A DNA stretch of 64,000 nucleotides. It comes from Curtobacterium sp. ER1/6 (GTDB lineage Bacteria; Actinomycetota; Actinomycetes; Actinomycetales; Microbacteriaceae). The notes beneath the pieces were generated by a model, which was not told where the DNA came from, made no database searches, and saw nothing but the letters and a program-made list of their open reading frames with translations. The position numbers were made by a program, and so were the translations under genes. The first letter of the stretch is position 1; every line of letters starts with the position of its first letter. Shown one piece after another: positions 23,407 through 61,635 of the stretch. The stretch spans positions 62,001-126,000 of the forward strand of contig NZ_MJAK01000006.1 of assembly GCF_001742745.1 (NCBI RefSeq), in the 5' to 3' direction.

Positions 23407-23589
23407 ATGTACAGCACCTACTCCGGGATGCCGAGGACCGCACGACCCACCGCGACCTCCACGCGGGTGGGCCTGACCGACCCGGCCGTCATCGACGCCT
23501 ACGTGTCCCGCCGCATCCACGACCCGGCGCTCCTGTCCGTGCGGACCGAACCGTCGTACGCTGACTTCTTCACGGCGCCCACCGCGTAG
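23407..23589 (+). CDS. 60-aa small protein with EPSYADFFTA tail
   Basis: ATG at 23407 follows GGAAGG (23391-23396) at normal distance. Residues ~20-36 (RVGLTDPAVIDAYVSRR) and the C-terminal EPSYADFFTA align with the 59-aa protein at 54028-54207 (RRGMTAPAELDRMISER ... EPSYADFFTA). Both sit just upstream of transcription-regulator genes. There is no signal peptide and no membrane segment. The function is unknown. Conservation between two loci in one genome argues that it is real. Confidence 0.75.
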   Translation: MYSTYSGMPRTARPTATSTRVGLTDPAVIDAYVSRRIHDPALLSVRTEPSYADFFTAPTA

Positions 23590-46703: not shown

Positions 46704-47987
46704 TCATCGGGCCAGGTGCGTCCGGTGCATGAACCACACGACGCCCTCGGCCAGGGCGACACCGGCGGTGTGCCAGTCGTGTCCACCATCCTCGACCACC
46801 CGTTCGGTCACGGCGACCCCGGCGGCACGGGCGGCGGCCGCGACCCGGGGCACGACCGGCCCGTAGCGGGTGTCGTCGGCACCCGCTGCGATGAACGCTG
46901 CGGAGTCGGGGTAGGGCGCGTGCTCGGCGAGCACCTGGAGGGGTTGTGCCGCCCGGAACGCCGCATCGTCACCGCGGAAACCCCTCGTGATGGTGTCGTC
47001 ACGATCGCGCAGCATCGGCCCGAGCTGTCCGGAGACGTCGATCCACGAGCCGAAGCGGTCCGGCCGTCCGGTCCCGAGCTGCAGGGCGCACGTGCCGCCC
47101 TGCGAGAACCCCGAGACCGCCCAGTCGGCGCCGTCGGTCGCCGCGTGCAGGTGCGCCTGCACCCATGCCGGGACGTCCCGCGTCAGGTAGGTCGCGCTGT
47201 TGCCGAGCGGACCGTCGACGCACATCGGGTTGTTCGTCGCCTCGGCGAGCTGGTCCGGCATCACCACGATCGGGGCGAGCCCGTGGTGCCGCCGTGCGAC
47301 CTCGTCGAGCCGGTCCGCCATCCGTCCGGCCTCGAGGATGTTCGCCGGGGCCGCCCCCGGACCCTGCCCGGACAGCATCACGACGACGGGGAGTTCCGGG
47401 GCGTGGTCGACCAGCGCGGCCGGCGGCAGCCACACGAGCGCCGGACGCGCGCGGAAGTGCGAGACCGTCCCGGGGATCCGCACCGAACCGTACCGACCGT
47501 GTGCGGGCAGGTCGTGCGGCGGCCGCCAGTCCGACGCGTCGGCGAGCCGCGGCCCCGGGTGCGGGTCCGTCGGCAGACGGAGCGCCGGCACGTGGGACTC
47601 GCCCAGCGCGTCCGCGATCGTCGGGAAGAGTCCCGCGTCACGGTTCACCGCGAGTCCGCCCGAGACGAGCGCGAGCGGCACCAGCAGGACCGCCACCGTC
47701 CGGGCGAGCAGGCGTCCGCGCACGAGCCCGACCACCGCGACGGCGAGCAGGGCGCACACGACCCCGGTCCACACCCGGTCGACCCAGGTGGGCGGGATGC
47801 CGAGGACGTCCAGCACGTCGCCGAGGAACCACGACAGCAGCGTCCCGAGCAGTGCGCCCGCGACGACCGCCACCGCGACCCACCGCCACGACCGGCGCAC
47901 CGCGGCGGCGACGACCACCGCGGCCAGCAGGGTCAGCGCGTACAGCGGCAGGAGCACGTGGGCGGAGAGGAGCGGCAGGGTCGTCAC
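46704..47987 (-). CDS. membrane-anchored esterase of the Ag85/esterase-D fold
   Basis: A 427-aa protein. Four N-terminal helices (~residues 5-125) are followed by an outside alpha/beta-hydrolase: VSHFRARPALVWLPPAAL, VVVMLSGQGPGAAP, NNPMCVDGPLGNSATYLTRDVPAWV, nucleophile Ser in GFSQGGTCALQLG and His in DGGHDWHT. The hydrolase half is a close paralog of the protein at 60511-61635. It probably acts on cell-envelope or extracellular esters. GTG at 47987 has a weak Shine-Dalgarno. Confidence 0.85.
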   Translation of the reverse strand: MTTLPLLSAHVLLPLYALTLLAAVVVAAAVRRSWRWVAVAVVAGALLGTLLSWFLGDVLDVLGIPPTWVDRVWTGVVCALLAVAVVGLVRGRLLARTVAVLLVPLALVSGGLAVNRDAGLFPTIADALGESHVPALRLPTDPHPGPRLADASDWRPPHDLPAHGRYGSVRIPGTVSHFRARPALVWLPPAALVDHAPELPVVVMLSGQGPGAAPANILEAGRMADRLDEVARRHHGLAPIVVMPDQLAEATNNPMCVDGPLGNSATYLTRDVPAWVQAHLHAATDGADWAVSGFSQGGTCALQLGTGRPDRFGSWIDVSGQLGPMLRDRDDTITRGFRGDDAAFRAAQPLQVLAEHAPYPDSAAFIAAGADDTRYGPVVPRVAAAARAAGVAVTERVVEDGGHDWHTAGVALAEGVVWFMHRTHLAR

Positions 47988-51554: not shown

Positions 51555-52526
51555 TCAGGCGTGCCGCTCCCGGGCCGCCCGGAGCGTCTCACCCGGGAGC
51601 TCGCCGAACTCCTCGCGGTACGCACCCGAGAACCGGCCGAGGTGCGTGATCCCGACGGCCCGCGCGACGTCCGCGACCGCGGCGTGCTGTCCGGTCTCGA
51701 GCTGCTGCCGCGCCATCAGGAGCCGGACGCTCCGCAGGTAGCTCATCGGCGTGGTGCCGTGGATGCGCTGGAACGCGCTCTGCAGGCCGCGGACGCTCAT
51801 GCCGGCGGCCGCGGCGACGTCGTCGACGGTGATGCGCTCGGCGACGTGGTCGAGGAGGAACGTCTCGGCGTCGGCGAGGCCGGCGTGGGCGGTCCGCGGT
51901 GTGTCGACCTGCGCGGGCCAGTGCGGGATCGCGGTGAGCAGGCCCGCGGCGGCCATCGCGGCGAGCTCGTGCTCGCGGGCCAGGGAGACCTCGCCCGTGG
52001 TGCCGAGGATCTCCGCGGCGACGGTGCGGACCATCAGCCACCACGCGGCGAGCGGTGCCCCGTCCGGGATGTGGTTCGGCTCGAACTCGAGCGGCCCCGG
52101 CTCCCACCCGCCGCGCTCGGCGGCGACGCGCTCGACGACCTCGCGGTCGATGCGCAGGACGTCCTTCTGGAACCGGTCCCACTGCACCTGCTGGCGACCG
52201 GGCGAGTACAGGACCGGACGACCGATCGGCAGCTGCTGGCCACCCACCACGGCGTGGCCGGCCTTCAACCAGACCAGGACGATCGCAGCGGTCGCGTCGA
52301 CCTCGCCGCGTACCGTGCCGGTGCAGCTGGTCGACTCGAGGGTCAGCAGCGGCGTGCCGGTCAGGGTCTCCTCGAACGTGAAGTCGCTGCTGCCGGTCAC
52401 GTCGAGGCCGCGCACCAGGAAGGTGTGCAGGATCGCGTTCCGGGCGGTCGCGGTGTCGCGGGTCCGCGTCACGAGGCGCGTCCGCGTGATGGTCGCGGCG
52501 ACCGGGTCGTCGTCGTGGTCGTGCAT
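51555..52526 (-). CDS. AraC-family regulator 1
   Basis: A 323-aa protein. The N-terminal cupin-like sensing domain (AraC_binding_2 style: HAVVGGQQLPIGRPVLYSPGRQQVQWDRFQKDVLRIDREVVERVA) is followed by two C-terminal helix-turn-helix units (~235-320: ITVDDVAAAAGMSVRGLQSAFQRIHGTTPMSYLRSVRLLMARQQL and VADVARAVGITHLGRFSGAYREEFGELP). It lies 11 bp downstream of regulator 2 on the same strand, so both come from one transcript. Confidence 0.9.
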   Translation of the reverse strand: MHDHDDDPVAATITRTRLVTRTRDTATARNAILHTFLVRGLDVTGSSDFTFEETLTGTPLLTLESTSCTGTVRGEVDATAAIVLVWLKAGHAVVGGQQLPIGRPVLYSPGRQQVQWDRFQKDVLRIDREVVERVAAERGGWEPGPLEFEPNHIPDGAPLAAWWLMVRTVAAEILGTTGEVSLAREHELAAMAAAGLLTAIPHWPAQVDTPRTAHAGLADAETFLLDHVAERITVDDVAAAAGMSVRGLQSAFQRIHGTTPMSYLRSVRLLMARQQLETGQHAAVADVARAVGITHLGRFSGAYREEFGELPGETLRAARERHA

Positions 52527-52537
52527 GCGTCCGTTCC

Positions 52538-53491
52538 TCAGCTGCGGCGGAGGGTGTCGCGGGGGTACTCCCCGTGCTGTTCAGCGTAGGAGGCGGAGAA
52601 CCGACCGGCGTGCGCGAAGCCCCAGTGCCGTGCGACGTCGGCGATGTTCGTCGTCGCCGGGTCGCCGGCGAGCAGCGCGTCCCGCACCCGGTCGAGCCGG
52701 ACGTGCCGGATGTAGCCGTTCGGGCTCATCGCGACGGTTCGCTGGAAGGCGTGCTGCAGGGCACGGAGGCTGAGGTTCGCGACCGAGGCCAGGTCCGCCG
52801 TGGTGATCGGCAGGTGGGCGTGCTCGTGCACGTACTCCACGGCGGTCCGGACGTGGCTGTTCTTCGGCAGCAGCAGGTCGGCCGGCAGCGACGCGGAGAC
52901 GACCGGGTACAGCTCGAGCAGGGCGAGCGCCCCCAGTCGGCCCATCTCGGCCTGCAGGAGCGGTGACGCCTGACGGTCCATCACGGTGTGGGAGATGAGC
53001 TGCACGCTGCTGCGCCACACCTGCAGGGCCCGGTCGTCCGGGCGGACCGTGTGGTCGAGTCGCAGGTCACCGGGTGCCGTGCCGCGCTCGCCCGCCACGG
53101 TCTCGAGCGCCGCACGGTTCACCTGGACGATGCGCTGGTCGTAGTCGTCGTACGAGAACGCCGCACCCTGCTGCGGCCAGAGCTGCGGCCGACCGGGCTC
53201 CATCCGGACCTGGTCGTCACCGGTGCCGATCGTCGCGGTGCCCTTCGTCGTCCACTGCACGACGAAGTCCTCGGACGGGGTCATCACGCCGTCGAGGTGT
53301 CCGTCGAACCGGATCGTCCTGAGCGTCATGGACCGGTCACCGACGGCGGTGTACCGGAACGAGAACGGCTGCCGGGTCTGGTCGGCACTCCACTGCTGGC
53401 CCGCGTACGCCTCGGAGAGGAAGTCGCGAGCGACATCGAGGTCGGTGCTCTGCGTCGCTTCCTGGACACGGGTCGGGTTCGGGTCATCCAT
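52538..53491 (-). CDS. AraC-family regulator 2
   Basis: A 317-aa protein (ATG at 53491) with the same domain layout as regulator 1: sensing domain FVVQWTTKGTATIGTGDDQVRMEPGRPQLWPQQGAAFSYDDYDQRIVQVNRAALETVAGE and HTH units ITTADLASVANLSLRALQHAFQRTVAMSPNGYIRHVRLDRV and IADVARHWGFAHAGRFSASYAEQHGEYP. It is divergent from the small-ORF operon, with 22-bp-spaced direct repeats between them, so it is the likely regulator of that operon. Confidence 0.9.
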   Translation of the reverse strand: MDDPNPTRVQEATQSTDLDVARDFLSEAYAGQQWSADQTRQPFSFRYTAVGDRSMTLRTIRFDGHLDGVMTPSEDFVVQWTTKGTATIGTGDDQVRMEPGRPQLWPQQGAAFSYDDYDQRIVQVNRAALETVAGERGTAPGDLRLDHTVRPDDRALQVWRSSVQLISHTVMDRQASPLLQAEMGRLGALALLELYPVVSASLPADLLLPKNSHVRTAVEYVHEHAHLPITTADLASVANLSLRALQHAFQRTVAMSPNGYIRHVRLDRVRDALLAGDPATTNIADVARHWGFAHAGRFSASYAEQHGEYPRDTLRRS

Positions 53492-53588
53492 GGGGTGGCA
53501 GCAGTGTGCCGGAGGAACCGGGCAGGGGCCGACCAGTATCCGGAACACGTCAGGATCTGACCCGACCGGCGCCGTCCCCACGCAGCCA

Positions 53589-53626
53589 CATCCGCTATCC
53601 GACGGCACCGCATCCGCTATCCGACG
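53589..53626 (+). promoter_or_regulatory. two direct repeats, likely AraC-type operator
   Basis: CATCCGCTATCCGACG occurs at 53589-53604 and again at 53611-53626, exactly 22 bp apart (two helical turns). Direct-repeat half-sites at about two turns are what AraC-family dimers bind. They lie ~105 bp before the first small ORF and ~98 bp before the AraC start. Confidence 0.65.
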
Positions 53627-53730
53627 AGCTCGTCGCCGGTGGTCGCGGGCGTCGCCACCCGCGCCGTACGGTCGGACCACCGCCCGACGCCACTCCCGAT
53701 CCGGCGCCGAGCAGAACGAGGGACACCCCC

Positions 53731-53949
53731 ATGACCACCATCACCGCCACCGACCTCCAGGTCGCGCCGACGACCGCGCACGACGCCGTGTCGCTCCGTC
53801 GCCGTCGCCGTCCGGCACAGCGCAGCCCCTTCACCGAGGTCCTCGAGGCGCGTCGGCAGCACACCCTGCAGGTGGCAGCCGTGAGCTCCGGCATCCTGTC
53901 CGTCACCGTCGCGGCCTCCGCGGCGATCATCCTCACCCTCTCCGCATGA
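53731..53949 (+). CDS. 72-aa small membrane protein of the small-ORF operon
   Basis: MTTITATDLQVAPTTAHD leads to a basic middle (SLRRRRRPAQRS) and a C-terminal transmembrane helix (LQVAAVSSGILSVTVAASAAIILTLSA). It is tail-anchored in appearance. The stop overlaps the next start (ATGA). The family is unknown. ACGAGGGACACC upstream gives a weak ribosome-binding site (GAGGG). Confidence 0.65.
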   Translation: MTTITATDLQVAPTTAHDAVSLRRRRRPAQRSPFTEVLEARRQHTLQVAAVSSGILSVTVAASAAIILTLSA

Positions 53950-54035
53950 GCGCCCTGCTCGCGCACGACGATCTGGCCACCCAGGCCATCGACATGACCG
54001 CCCTCCTCGCAGAACAGGACCGCACCGATGCGTGA
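53946..54035 (+). CDS. 29-aa peptide ORF
   Basis: ATG at 53946 overlaps the previous stop by 4 bp and its own stop overlaps the next ORF by 8 bp. The sequence MSALLAHDDLATQAIDMTALLAEQDRTDA is acidic and amphipathic with no signal. Translational coupling on both sides is the main support; alone it would not be credible. Confidence 0.5.
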   Translation: MSALLAHDDLATQAIDMTALLAEQDRTDA

Positions 54036-54207
54036 CCGCCACGACCTCGCCGCCCTCCGCCAGGACCCGACCGAGTGGCACCGCCGCGGCATGACCGCTC
54101 CGGCGGAGCTCGACCGGATGATCTCCGAACGCCTCGGGGCGCAGTTCTCCAGCACCGCCCGCTCCGCCTTCGAACCGTCCTACGCGGACTTCTTCACCGC
54201 GGCCTGA
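54028..54207 (+). CDS. 59-aa small protein with EPSYADFFTA tail
   Basis: MRDRHDLAALRQDPTEWHRRG leads to MTAPAELDRMISERLGAQFSS and the C-terminal FEPSYADFFTAA. It is a paralog of the 60-aa protein at 23407-23589: RxGhTxPAxhDxhhSxRh (h = hydrophobic) and the exact EPSYADFFTA are shared. It is soluble, helical and of unknown function. It overlaps the 29-aa ORF and is followed 70 bp later by a TetR gene. A regulator also follows the paralog at 23.4 kb. Confidence 0.78.
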   Translation: MRDRHDLAALRQDPTEWHRRGMTAPAELDRMISERLGAQFSSTARSAFEPSYADFFTAA

Positions 54208-54277
54208 TCCCGGCCGCGCCCGACCCGGGTGCCGGTCAGCACCCCGATCGGACCCCGCACAACGGACACGTCACACC

Positions 54278-54874
54278 ATGACCCTCCTCACCCTCACGCC
54301 CTCCCGCCGCGAGACCGACGTGCAGCGCGCCGCCTCCGGTGCCGCCGACGCCCTCTTCACCGAGCGCGGTGTCATCCCGGTCACGCTCGAGGACGTCGCG
54401 GACCGCGCGGGGCTGACCCTCGCCGAGCTCACCGCCGCCTACCCGACCAAGCGTGACCTGGTCGTCGCCGTGCTCCAGCGGTGGCACGGGGCCTGGCGCC
54501 GGGCGCTGGACCGGATCGCGTCGTCCGAGAGCGATCCGCGGGACGAGGTCCTCGCGATCTTCGGGTACCTCGAGGAGTGCTTCGAGGACGAGGGGTGGCG
54601 CGGCTGCGCCTTCATCAACGGCCACGCGGAGCTCGGTCGGCAGGACCCGGGCGTCGCCGAGCTCGCGCGCGAGCACTTCCTCGACGTCCAGCGGCACCTC
54701 ACGCTCGTCTGCGAGCGGGGCGCGATGCCGGCGCACATCGCGCAGGGCCTGTCGCTCCTGATCGAGGGCGCGCGGGTCGAGTCCGCCGTCCAACGGTCGG
54801 CTCAGCCGGCGCGCTCCGCTCGGCTGGCCGCGGCCGTGCTCATGTCGGTCTACGAGTCGCGTCCGACCTTCTGA
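54278..54874 (+). CDS. TetR-family transcriptional regulator
   Basis: A 198-aa protein. The N-terminal HTH (AASGAADALFTERGVIPVTLEDVADRAGLTLAELTAAYPTKRDLVVAVLQRWHGAWRRAL) and the C-terminal domain with GWRGCAFINGHAELG (a pattern common in the TetR_C group around AcuR-like regulators) are clear. It is probably the last gene of the small-ORF operon. Confidence 0.88.
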   Translation: MTLLTLTPSRRETDVQRAASGAADALFTERGVIPVTLEDVADRAGLTLAELTAAYPTKRDLVVAVLQRWHGAWRRALDRIASSESDPRDEVLAIFGYLEECFEDEGWRGCAFINGHAELGRQDPGVAELAREHFLDVQRHLTLVCERGAMPAHIAQGLSLLIEGARVESAVQRSAQPARSARLAAAVLMSVYESRPTF

Positions 54875-54922
54875 CGCCGCGCGCGGGCGTGGCGACGCTC
54901 GCGCGGGCGGCGACAGGCGCGT

Positions 54923-54989
54923 GTCGAACCACGTTGCCGACATCGAACCAGGCGTCGACACTGGTTCGATGTCGCAAGCGTGGTTTGAC
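54923..54989. repeat. long imperfect inverted repeat between convergent genes
   Basis: 29-base arms (54923-54951 and 54961-54989) match at 25 positions, with GACATCGAACCAG/CTGGTTCGATGTC perfect, around a 9-base loop. It is less GC-rich than its surroundings and unrelated in sequence to the CGGACGGGAGGC family. It lies after the TetR gene and before the convergent MFS gene. Confidence 0.75.
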
Positions 54990-55050
54990 GCGATCCCGCG
55001 CGCACCCGCACGCCGCACGCCGCGCCGCGCGACGGCGCAGCCCGCCCGCG

Positions 55051-60409: not shown

Positions 60410-60510
60410 GCACCCCGTCCCACACCCCGGACGTCGGCTGGTGGTTCCCTCAGCGCCGGCGAGCCGCCGTCGACCCGGACCCGGAGGTGCCGTCCCTACG
60501 ATCCGTCCTC

Positions 60511-61635
60511 GTGCAGCGTGTCCAGCGTGTCGGAGTCGTGACGAGGGTCGTCCTCGTCCTGGTGGTCGCCGTGACGTCGGCAGCGGTCGCCGTCGCCCTG
60601 GTCGGGTGGTTCCGTCCGCCGGACCGATCTGCCGCCGCTGCTGCCCCGGTCCCGAGCGCGACCCCGACCGCAGCGTCGACCCCGACCGCCGACGGACTCG
60701 GGTCCAGGCTGTCCGTGTTCCGGCCGCTGGTGCTCGGTTCGACGGTCCCCGCGGGCGAGCGCCCGACCCCGGACGAGCCGTCGACCGTCGACCTCGCGAC
60801 GACCTGGGTGGCGCCGTCGGACATGCCGCAGACCGGTCGGCTGCTGCACGTGTCGATCCCGGGCACGACGTCGCACTTCACCGCCCGCGACGCCCTGCTC
60901 TACCTGCCCCCGGCGGCCCTCGTCGCGGACCCGCCGCCCCTGCCGGTGGCGGTCGTGATGCCCGGGCAGTCGCGGGGGTCCGGCCCGGACGACCTGCAGA
61001 ACGGCGGGCACATCGAGCAGACGATGGACGCGATCGCCGAGCTGCACCGTGGTCTGACCCCGATCGTCGTCGTCCCCGACCAGCTCGGCCCGGAGTCGGG
61101 CAACCCGATGTGCGTCGACGGGCCGCTCGGCAACAGCCGGTCGTACCTCGAGCACGACGTCCCCGCATGGATCACGAGCCACCTGCGCGTGCAGACCGGT
61201 GCCGCGGCCTGGACGATCGGCGGGTTCTCGCAGGGCGGCACGTGTGCGATCCAGCTCGGCGCCGGGGACCCCGACCGCTTCGGGAACATCATCGACGTCT
61301 CCGGCGAGCTCGGCCCCTCCCTCGGGGACCCGGCGCGGACGATCGCCCGCGGGTTCTCGGGGAACGCGGCGGCGTACCGGGCGGCCCAGCCCCTGGCGGT
61401 CATGGCCCGGCACGGCCACTACGCGTCGACGTGGGCGTTCTTCACCGCGGCGCAGCTCGACACCCACTACGGCCCGGCGATGCCCGTCGTCGCGGAACGT
61501 GCGGCGGCGGTCGGGATGCACGTGACGCGGTGGGTCCTGCCCGGTGCTCGGCACAACTGGACGATGGCGCGGGCGGCGATCGCCGCGGGTATGGCGTGGC
61601 TGGAGCCGCACGTGGGGCTGGCGCCCGCCGGCTGA
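60511..61635 (+). CDS. secreted esterase of the Ag85/esterase-D fold
   Basis: A 374-aa exported hydrolase. GTG at 60511 lies 8 bp after TACGAT (likely -10). A signal-anchor helix (VVLVLVVAVTSAAVAVALVGWF) and a Pro/Thr/Ala linker lead to the hydrolase: VSIPGTTSHFTARDALLYLPPAAL, VVMPGQSRG, NPMCVDGPLGNSRSYLEHDVPAWI, nucleophile Ser in GFSQGGTCAIQLG, His in GARHNW. It is a paralog of the hydrolase half of 46704-47987, with one helix in place of four. Confidence 0.87.
   Translation: MQRVQRVGVVTRVVLVLVVAVTSAAVAVALVGWFRPPDRSAAAAAPVPSATPTAASTPTADGLGSRLSVFRPLVLGSTVPAGERPTPDEPSTVDLATTWVAPSDMPQTGRLLHVSIPGTTSHFTARDALLYLPPAALVADPPPLPVAVVMPGQSRGSGPDDLQNGGHIEQTMDAIAELHRGLTPIVVVPDQLGPESGNPMCVDGPLGNSRSYLEHDVPAWITSHLRVQTGAAAWTIGGFSQGGTCAIQLGAGDPDRFGNIIDVSGELGPSLGDPARTIARGFSGNAAAYRAAQPLAVMARHGHYASTWAFFTAAQLDTHYGPAMPVVAERAAAVGMHVTRWVLPGARHNWTMARAAIAAGMAWLEPHVGLAPAG

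Follow-up and report, generated by a model that had tools for sequence, protein, structure and literature searches.

The window analyzed here is a stretch of 64,000 nt from Curtobacterium sp. ER1/6, a member of a plant-associated genus common on leaves and in soil. Within it, three overlapping small genes, designated TMP, P29, and SP, are followed by a TetR gene and face two AraC genes on the opposite strand (Table 1). TMP overlaps P29 by 4 bp (ATGA), P29 overlaps SP by 8 bp (ATGCGTGA), and a gap of 70 bp separates SP from TetR. A sequence-only reading of this DNA had described small ORFs of these sizes with the two overlaps, a TetR gene after them, and two AraC genes opposite, and the sequence, the ORF lists, and Pfam confirmed its coordinates and overlaps.

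Table 1. Features of the TMP-P29-SP cassette and of a related gene in the same window
Feature	Position	Strand	Evidence and remarks
Second AraC-family regulator	51555..52526	-	Pfam; largely confined to the clade closest to the window
AraC-family regulator, divergent, proposed activator	52538..53491	-	PF14525 (9e-08) and HTH_18 (PF12833, 2.3e-18)
Putative distal operator copy, CACATCCGCTATCCGAC	53587..53603	+	Motif matrix
Putative proximal operator copy, CGCATCCGCTATCCGAC	53609..53625	+	Direct repeat, 22 bp from the distal copy
Putative -10 element, TACGGT	53667..53672	+	41 bp after the proximal operator
TMP (ORF1), 72 aa	53731..53949	+	ORF list; basic N-terminal part, TM helix at the C-terminus
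Predicted TM segment of TMP, residues ~48-68	53872..53934	+	Hydropathy (KD21 maximum 2.11 at 48-68); C-tail of 4 residues
P29 (ORF2), 29 aa	53946..54035	+	Start lies inside the TMP stop (ATGA)
SP (ORF3), 59 aa, soluble	54028..54207	+	Genus-wide paralogue family
SP core motif, WHRRGMTAP	54076..54102	+	Invariant or near-invariant columns
SP C-terminal motif, EPSYADFF	54172..54195	+	Conserved columns; in other genera, the small ORF that follows TMP/P29 likewise has YADFF or YASFF close to its C-terminus
TetR-family regulator, 198 aa, last gene of the cassette	54278..54874	+	PF00440 (8.8e-07)
SP paralogue, 60 aa, with EPSYADFF	23407..23589	+	Followed by MarR-like and TetR-like genes (named from sequence, not Pfam)

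The TMP protein has a charged, basic N-terminal part, a conserved SPF[ST]EV motif, and one C-terminal helix. Hydropathy profiles of 15 TMP members showed a single C-terminal hydrophobic helix with a C-tail of 1–7 residues and no N-terminal signal, the features of a C-tail-anchored membrane protein, and insertion into the membrane is predicted. P29 has a conserved core, T[EQ][PA][IFL]D[MVIL]xxL. Curtobacterium sp. MCJR17_020 carries, on its plasmid P20, a fusion of P29 and SP into a single 92-residue protein, encoded downstream of TMP and MarR (locus L184). The AF2 model of SP (pLDDT 78, pTM 0.45) has helices at residues 2–12, 14–19, and 25–46, plus a short one near the C-terminus (54–57) that falls within YADFF; a Foldseek search with this model found no significant fold match.

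Because dN/dS over all pairs was uninformative at high divergence, selection was assessed in close pairs, with shifted frames as controls. The in-frame pN/pS was 0.39 for TMP, 0.44 for P29, and 0.37 for SP, compared with 0.96–2.4 in the shifted frames of the same small ORFs and 0.26 for TetR and AraC. Furthermore, the order TMP-P29-SP recurs in divergent cassettes with the same 4- and 8-bp overlaps, which are kept in almost every cassette that carries P29; in cassettes lacking P29, a 4-bp overlap of TMP with SP is the usual arrangement. A small number of starts are ambiguous. When frame disruption was looked for in close strains, none was found, and the loss of P29 was clean, as in L036, where TMP and SP then overlap by 4 bp. 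These patterns indicate that TMP, P29, and SP are all under purifying selection and, through the recurrence in divergent cassettes together with the in-frame constraint, that the overlapping layout exceeds chance. The proposal of the sequence-only reading, a single coupled unit of a tail-anchored membrane protein, a short peptide, and a conserved soluble protein with AraC and TetR regulators, is supported.

A profile search detected SP in all 66 genomes of the genus, usually in 3–9 copies each, and in a protein search every congener tested matched several times. The present genome has eight copies, several of them beside regulators. The best 80 named SP loci were Curtobacterium records, apart from some that bear just the label Microbacteriaceae bacterium PS02332 or PS02333. 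Beyond Curtobacterium, matches were weak at most, with about 21 candidates scored per genome, a depth at which distant members may be missed, and the viral contigs and phage records contained no SP homologue. TMP occurred in 57 of the 66 Curtobacterium genomes. All 38 TMP loci scored had a same-strand SP gene no more than 500 bp away, and both an AraC2-type gene and TetR were present in 35 of them, although these loci include the same genome twice in some cases and are not 38 independent cases. The orientation of AraC varies among cassettes (divergent, convergent, or downstream and codirectional); therefore, the gene set stays together through rearrangement. The cassette occupies different places in many Curtobacterium genomes, with flanking genes that differ between clades, and one copy is carried on plasmid pCspYC1, where the interval equivalent to P29 contains no listed gene (the gene table is incomplete).

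Membership of the cassette also varies. P29 is missing in several clades, SP often occurs alone, and SP and TMP paralogues exist without TetR. Other SP copies adjoin MarR, LacI, argG, purA, or tsaE (most neighbors were named from sequence); those at the purA, argG, and tsaE loci have no adjacent regulator, and solo copies are found in the same housekeeping neighborhoods (purA, argG) across different strains. In some strains, an SP paralogue flanked by AraC genes lies within or next to a CsbD/Asp23/Transgly_assoc cluster. A solo P29 homologue of 38 aa was likewise observed in or beside such a cluster in some Curtobacterium strains (L143:1767-1883, L144:2188-2304, and L151:2120-2275); the L151 homologue is 51 aa as called, and its true start may be an inner Met. 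At the argG loci L035, L061, L063, and L069, an ORF of 34–36 aa, with no obvious relationship to either TMP or P29, precedes the SP paralogue with a 4-bp overlap.

With profile A7, members of the TMP family were found in at least four further genera of Microbacteriaceae (g23, g24, g26, and g56), often beside MarR or AraC regulators; a limited first scan of other families of the order gave nothing convincing. In g56, the order TMP, P29, and a small ORF recurs with short overlaps, with YADFF or YASFF present in the third ORF at L177 and L189. The neighboring regulator in this genus is MarR at L182 and L189, and at L177 there are two adjacent ORFs that jointly match AraC2, possibly a frameshifted gene. 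In g26, MarR adjoins a TMP gene that overlaps an ORF with a YADFF tail, and in g24, TMP lies near purF without SP. In one genus outside Curtobacterium (L170–L173), TMP occurs without P29 or SP. A recurrent small protein of approximately 60–90 aa with the pattern FxGT[IV] ... YxGxF adjoins TMP or SP in several genera (L184:3540-3806, L141:4171-4377, and L172:2626-2874); the L184 copy had no Pfam match.

Upstream of the AraC-type cassettes, the motif GAYRTCCGnnWTYCGAC recurs on the coding strand. Because EM motif finding without a seed yielded only GC-rich triplets, the matrix was seeded by eye from the same sequences; with a leave-one-group-out procedure, which mitigates this bias but does not remove it, 15 of the 18 groups scored higher than almost all mononucleotide shuffles (p≤0.004), and the motif was lacking in the L042-type, L138, and L150 groups. 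Some cassettes show one copy only. The core pattern has four exact matches in the 3.37-Mb genome, two of which are those in Table 1, and comparable sites are mostly absent upstream of solo SP genes. A TAnnnT element starts 40–41 bp after the proximal operator in 23/25 cassettes listed, the two exceptions being cassettes in which the site chosen was weaker and more proximal. This spacing would put the center of the proximal site roughly 60 bp ahead of the inferred start site; a position near -60 is usual for an activator. The direct repeats are non-palindromic, which we infer to fit AraC better than TetR, and the cassette shows both features expected of an AraC-activated operon, an adjacent AraC/XylS HTH gene and putative direct-repeat sites at a fixed distance upstream of the -10 element. 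A scan for sigma-70 and terminator consensus sequences found nothing, nor did Rfam.

No significant match to the small proteins was found in Pfam, NCBIfam, PHROGs, PADLOC, or PDB sequences (not every library was run for each protein). Pfam gave no hits for TMP, P29, or SP, and PADLOC also gave none, so that no defence-system model matched. An eL29-like similarity (E 0.14) and a YlbE match (E 0.05) were weak and were judged to be chance. The open-access literature search found nothing on the cassette. The earlier statement that the layout is not assignable to a known system therefore holds for the family libraries searched, and the TMP-P29-SP cassettes are a previously uncharacterized multi-copy family of small-protein operons conserved throughout Curtobacterium, with recognizable counterparts in further Microbacteriaceae genera. 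This family matches none of the domain databases searched and is partly unannotated (the P29 equivalent on pCspYC1), yet it is under selection and has a sharply defined putative promoter.

Regulators and a small protein also share one locus in mar-type systems (marRAB), from which the cassette differs in gene order and protein families; no homology is claimed. The nearest analogues in logic are the whiJ-bldB-abaA clusters of Streptomyces, which, like XRE-DUF397 pairs, comprise multi-copy small proteins whose biochemical function is unknown, beside transcription factors; WhiJ9 recognizes and binds direct repeats within the adjoining intergenic region, and XRE-DUF397 pairs have been proposed as toxin-antitoxin systems (PMC10294661, PMC6262351, PMC10364602). 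Small paralogous proteins, adjacent regulators, and direct repeats are common to the cassette and whiJ-bldB-abaA, a likeness without relatedness, and several paralogous copies per genome beside regulators are a feature of both whiJ-bldB/XRE-DUF397 and the cassette (eight SP copies here). However, the regulators of the cassette are AraC and TetR (MarR at other loci) rather than of the WhiJ or XRE type, and SP, TMP, and P29 match neither DUF397 nor any other Pfam family; by these comparisons, membership fails on both defining protein families. The cassette also includes a tail-anchored protein, keeps its overlaps fixed at 4 and 8 bp, and was encountered here in no family other than Microbacteriaceae. 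ElaB of E. coli, a tail-anchored small inner-membrane protein with one C-terminal helix that is under stress regulators (PMC6389858), serves as the analogue for a tail anchor controlled by stress. TMP is similarly small with one C-terminal anchor helix; however, no Pfam match links the two, and TMP appears translationally coupled to two further microproteins.

The explanation we favor, tentatively and at somewhat less than even confidence, is that the cassette is an AraC-switched, translationally coupled microprotein operon that acts as a membrane-attached response module. As the proximal operator copy is centered near -60 relative to the inferred start, the AraC-type protein encoded beside it probably activates a promoter without a good -35 element. 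TMP, P29, and SP would then be made in series through translational coupling, given the fixed overlaps, and TetR at the end of the operon may provide a second, presumably ligand-responsive, input. TMP would insert by its C-terminal helix with its N-terminal part in the cytosol, and P29 and SP may bind each other and TMP to form a small complex on the inner membrane face. We can only guess that, in the presence of the AraC or TetR ligand, this complex modulates some membrane or regulatory target, that the ligand might be a stress or plant-derived compound, and that other SP paralogues might use the same partner via the common YADFF tail. The regulatory half of this explanation is better supported than the effector half, in which the membrane complex and the stress role are proposed from motifs, one type of fusion, and gene neighborhoods. 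Moreover, because P29 is dispensable, SP frequently stands by itself, and TMP has neither P29 nor SP beside it in one other genus, a fixed three-part complex is not obligatory. In a wider and rather less probable formulation, the cassettes would be lineage-specific modular microprotein complexes of Microbacteriaceae, each built from a tail anchor, a TxPIDM adaptor, and a YADFF-tailed effector, in which AraC, TetR, or MarR links small-molecule sensing to a common membrane or regulatory target. If the products do act as a complex, the family would offer a compact model of micro-operons being built, fused, and re-wired to new regulators.

Alternatively, the small proteins may be feedback partners of the regulators, with SP and/or P29 binding AraC, TetR, or MarR and tethering it at the membrane or inhibiting it, by analogy with BldB and WhiJ. 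The repeated location of SP and TMP genes next to regulators (AraC plus TetR, MarR, LacI) and the resemblance of the paralogue expansion and direct repeats to whiJ/bldB loci (PMC10294661) are consistent with such a role; however, a common binding surface is hard to see for regulators of unrelated families, and the regulator-free SP copies at purA, argG, and tsaE also argue against it, so that we regard it as unlikely. Still less probable is an addiction module of the toxin-antitoxin kind, in which TMP would be a membrane-active toxin, SP (with P29) its antidote, and TetR and AraC the control. In the Curtobacterium loci scored, TMP was never without SP while SP occurs alone, and cassettes are present on plasmids and in several unrelated places, as expected for such a module. 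However, the recurrence of solo SP in the same housekeeping neighborhoods across strains, the TMP without SP beside purF in another genus, and the lack of a match to any known toxin or antitoxin family (no PADLOC hits; no Pfam hits for the small ORFs) point away from it. It is very improbable that only TetR and AraC matter and that the small ORFs serve as a translated stretch ahead of TetR, tuning its translation: TetR is indeed the last gene, 70 bp after SP, but the small ORFs show protein-level constraint and conserved amino-acid motifs, and SP and TMP paralogues occur without TetR. We give hardly any credence to secreted peptide signaling, in which P29 or part of TMP would be exported and sensed as a pheromone, since, despite the small sizes and the presence of regulators only as adjoining genes, P29 has no secretion signal apparent on visual inspection, the cassettes read share no conserved transporter or peptidase, the hydrophobic segment of TMP is C-terminal rather than N-terminal, and the fusion of P29 to SP in one polypeptide suggests an intracellular partner. 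Accordingly, of the signaling or stress-peptide system raised in the sequence-only reading, the secreted signal is disfavored, by the lack of an apparent export signal and the P29-SP fusion, and the stress link gains weak support from the solo P29 and the SP paralogue by CsbD/Asp23/Transgly_assoc genes.

Two further features were observed around the cassette. Between TetR and an MFS gene, there is a near-perfect palindrome of approximately 70 bp (window 54920-54992; RNA fold z -7.4), related copies of which occur at about 30–40 sites in the genome (51 alignments); it looks like a dispersed palindromic (REP/MITE-like) element. The region is also flanked by two similar esterase-like proteins (window 46704-47987 and 60487-61635) that have the motif GNPMCVDGPLGNS in common.
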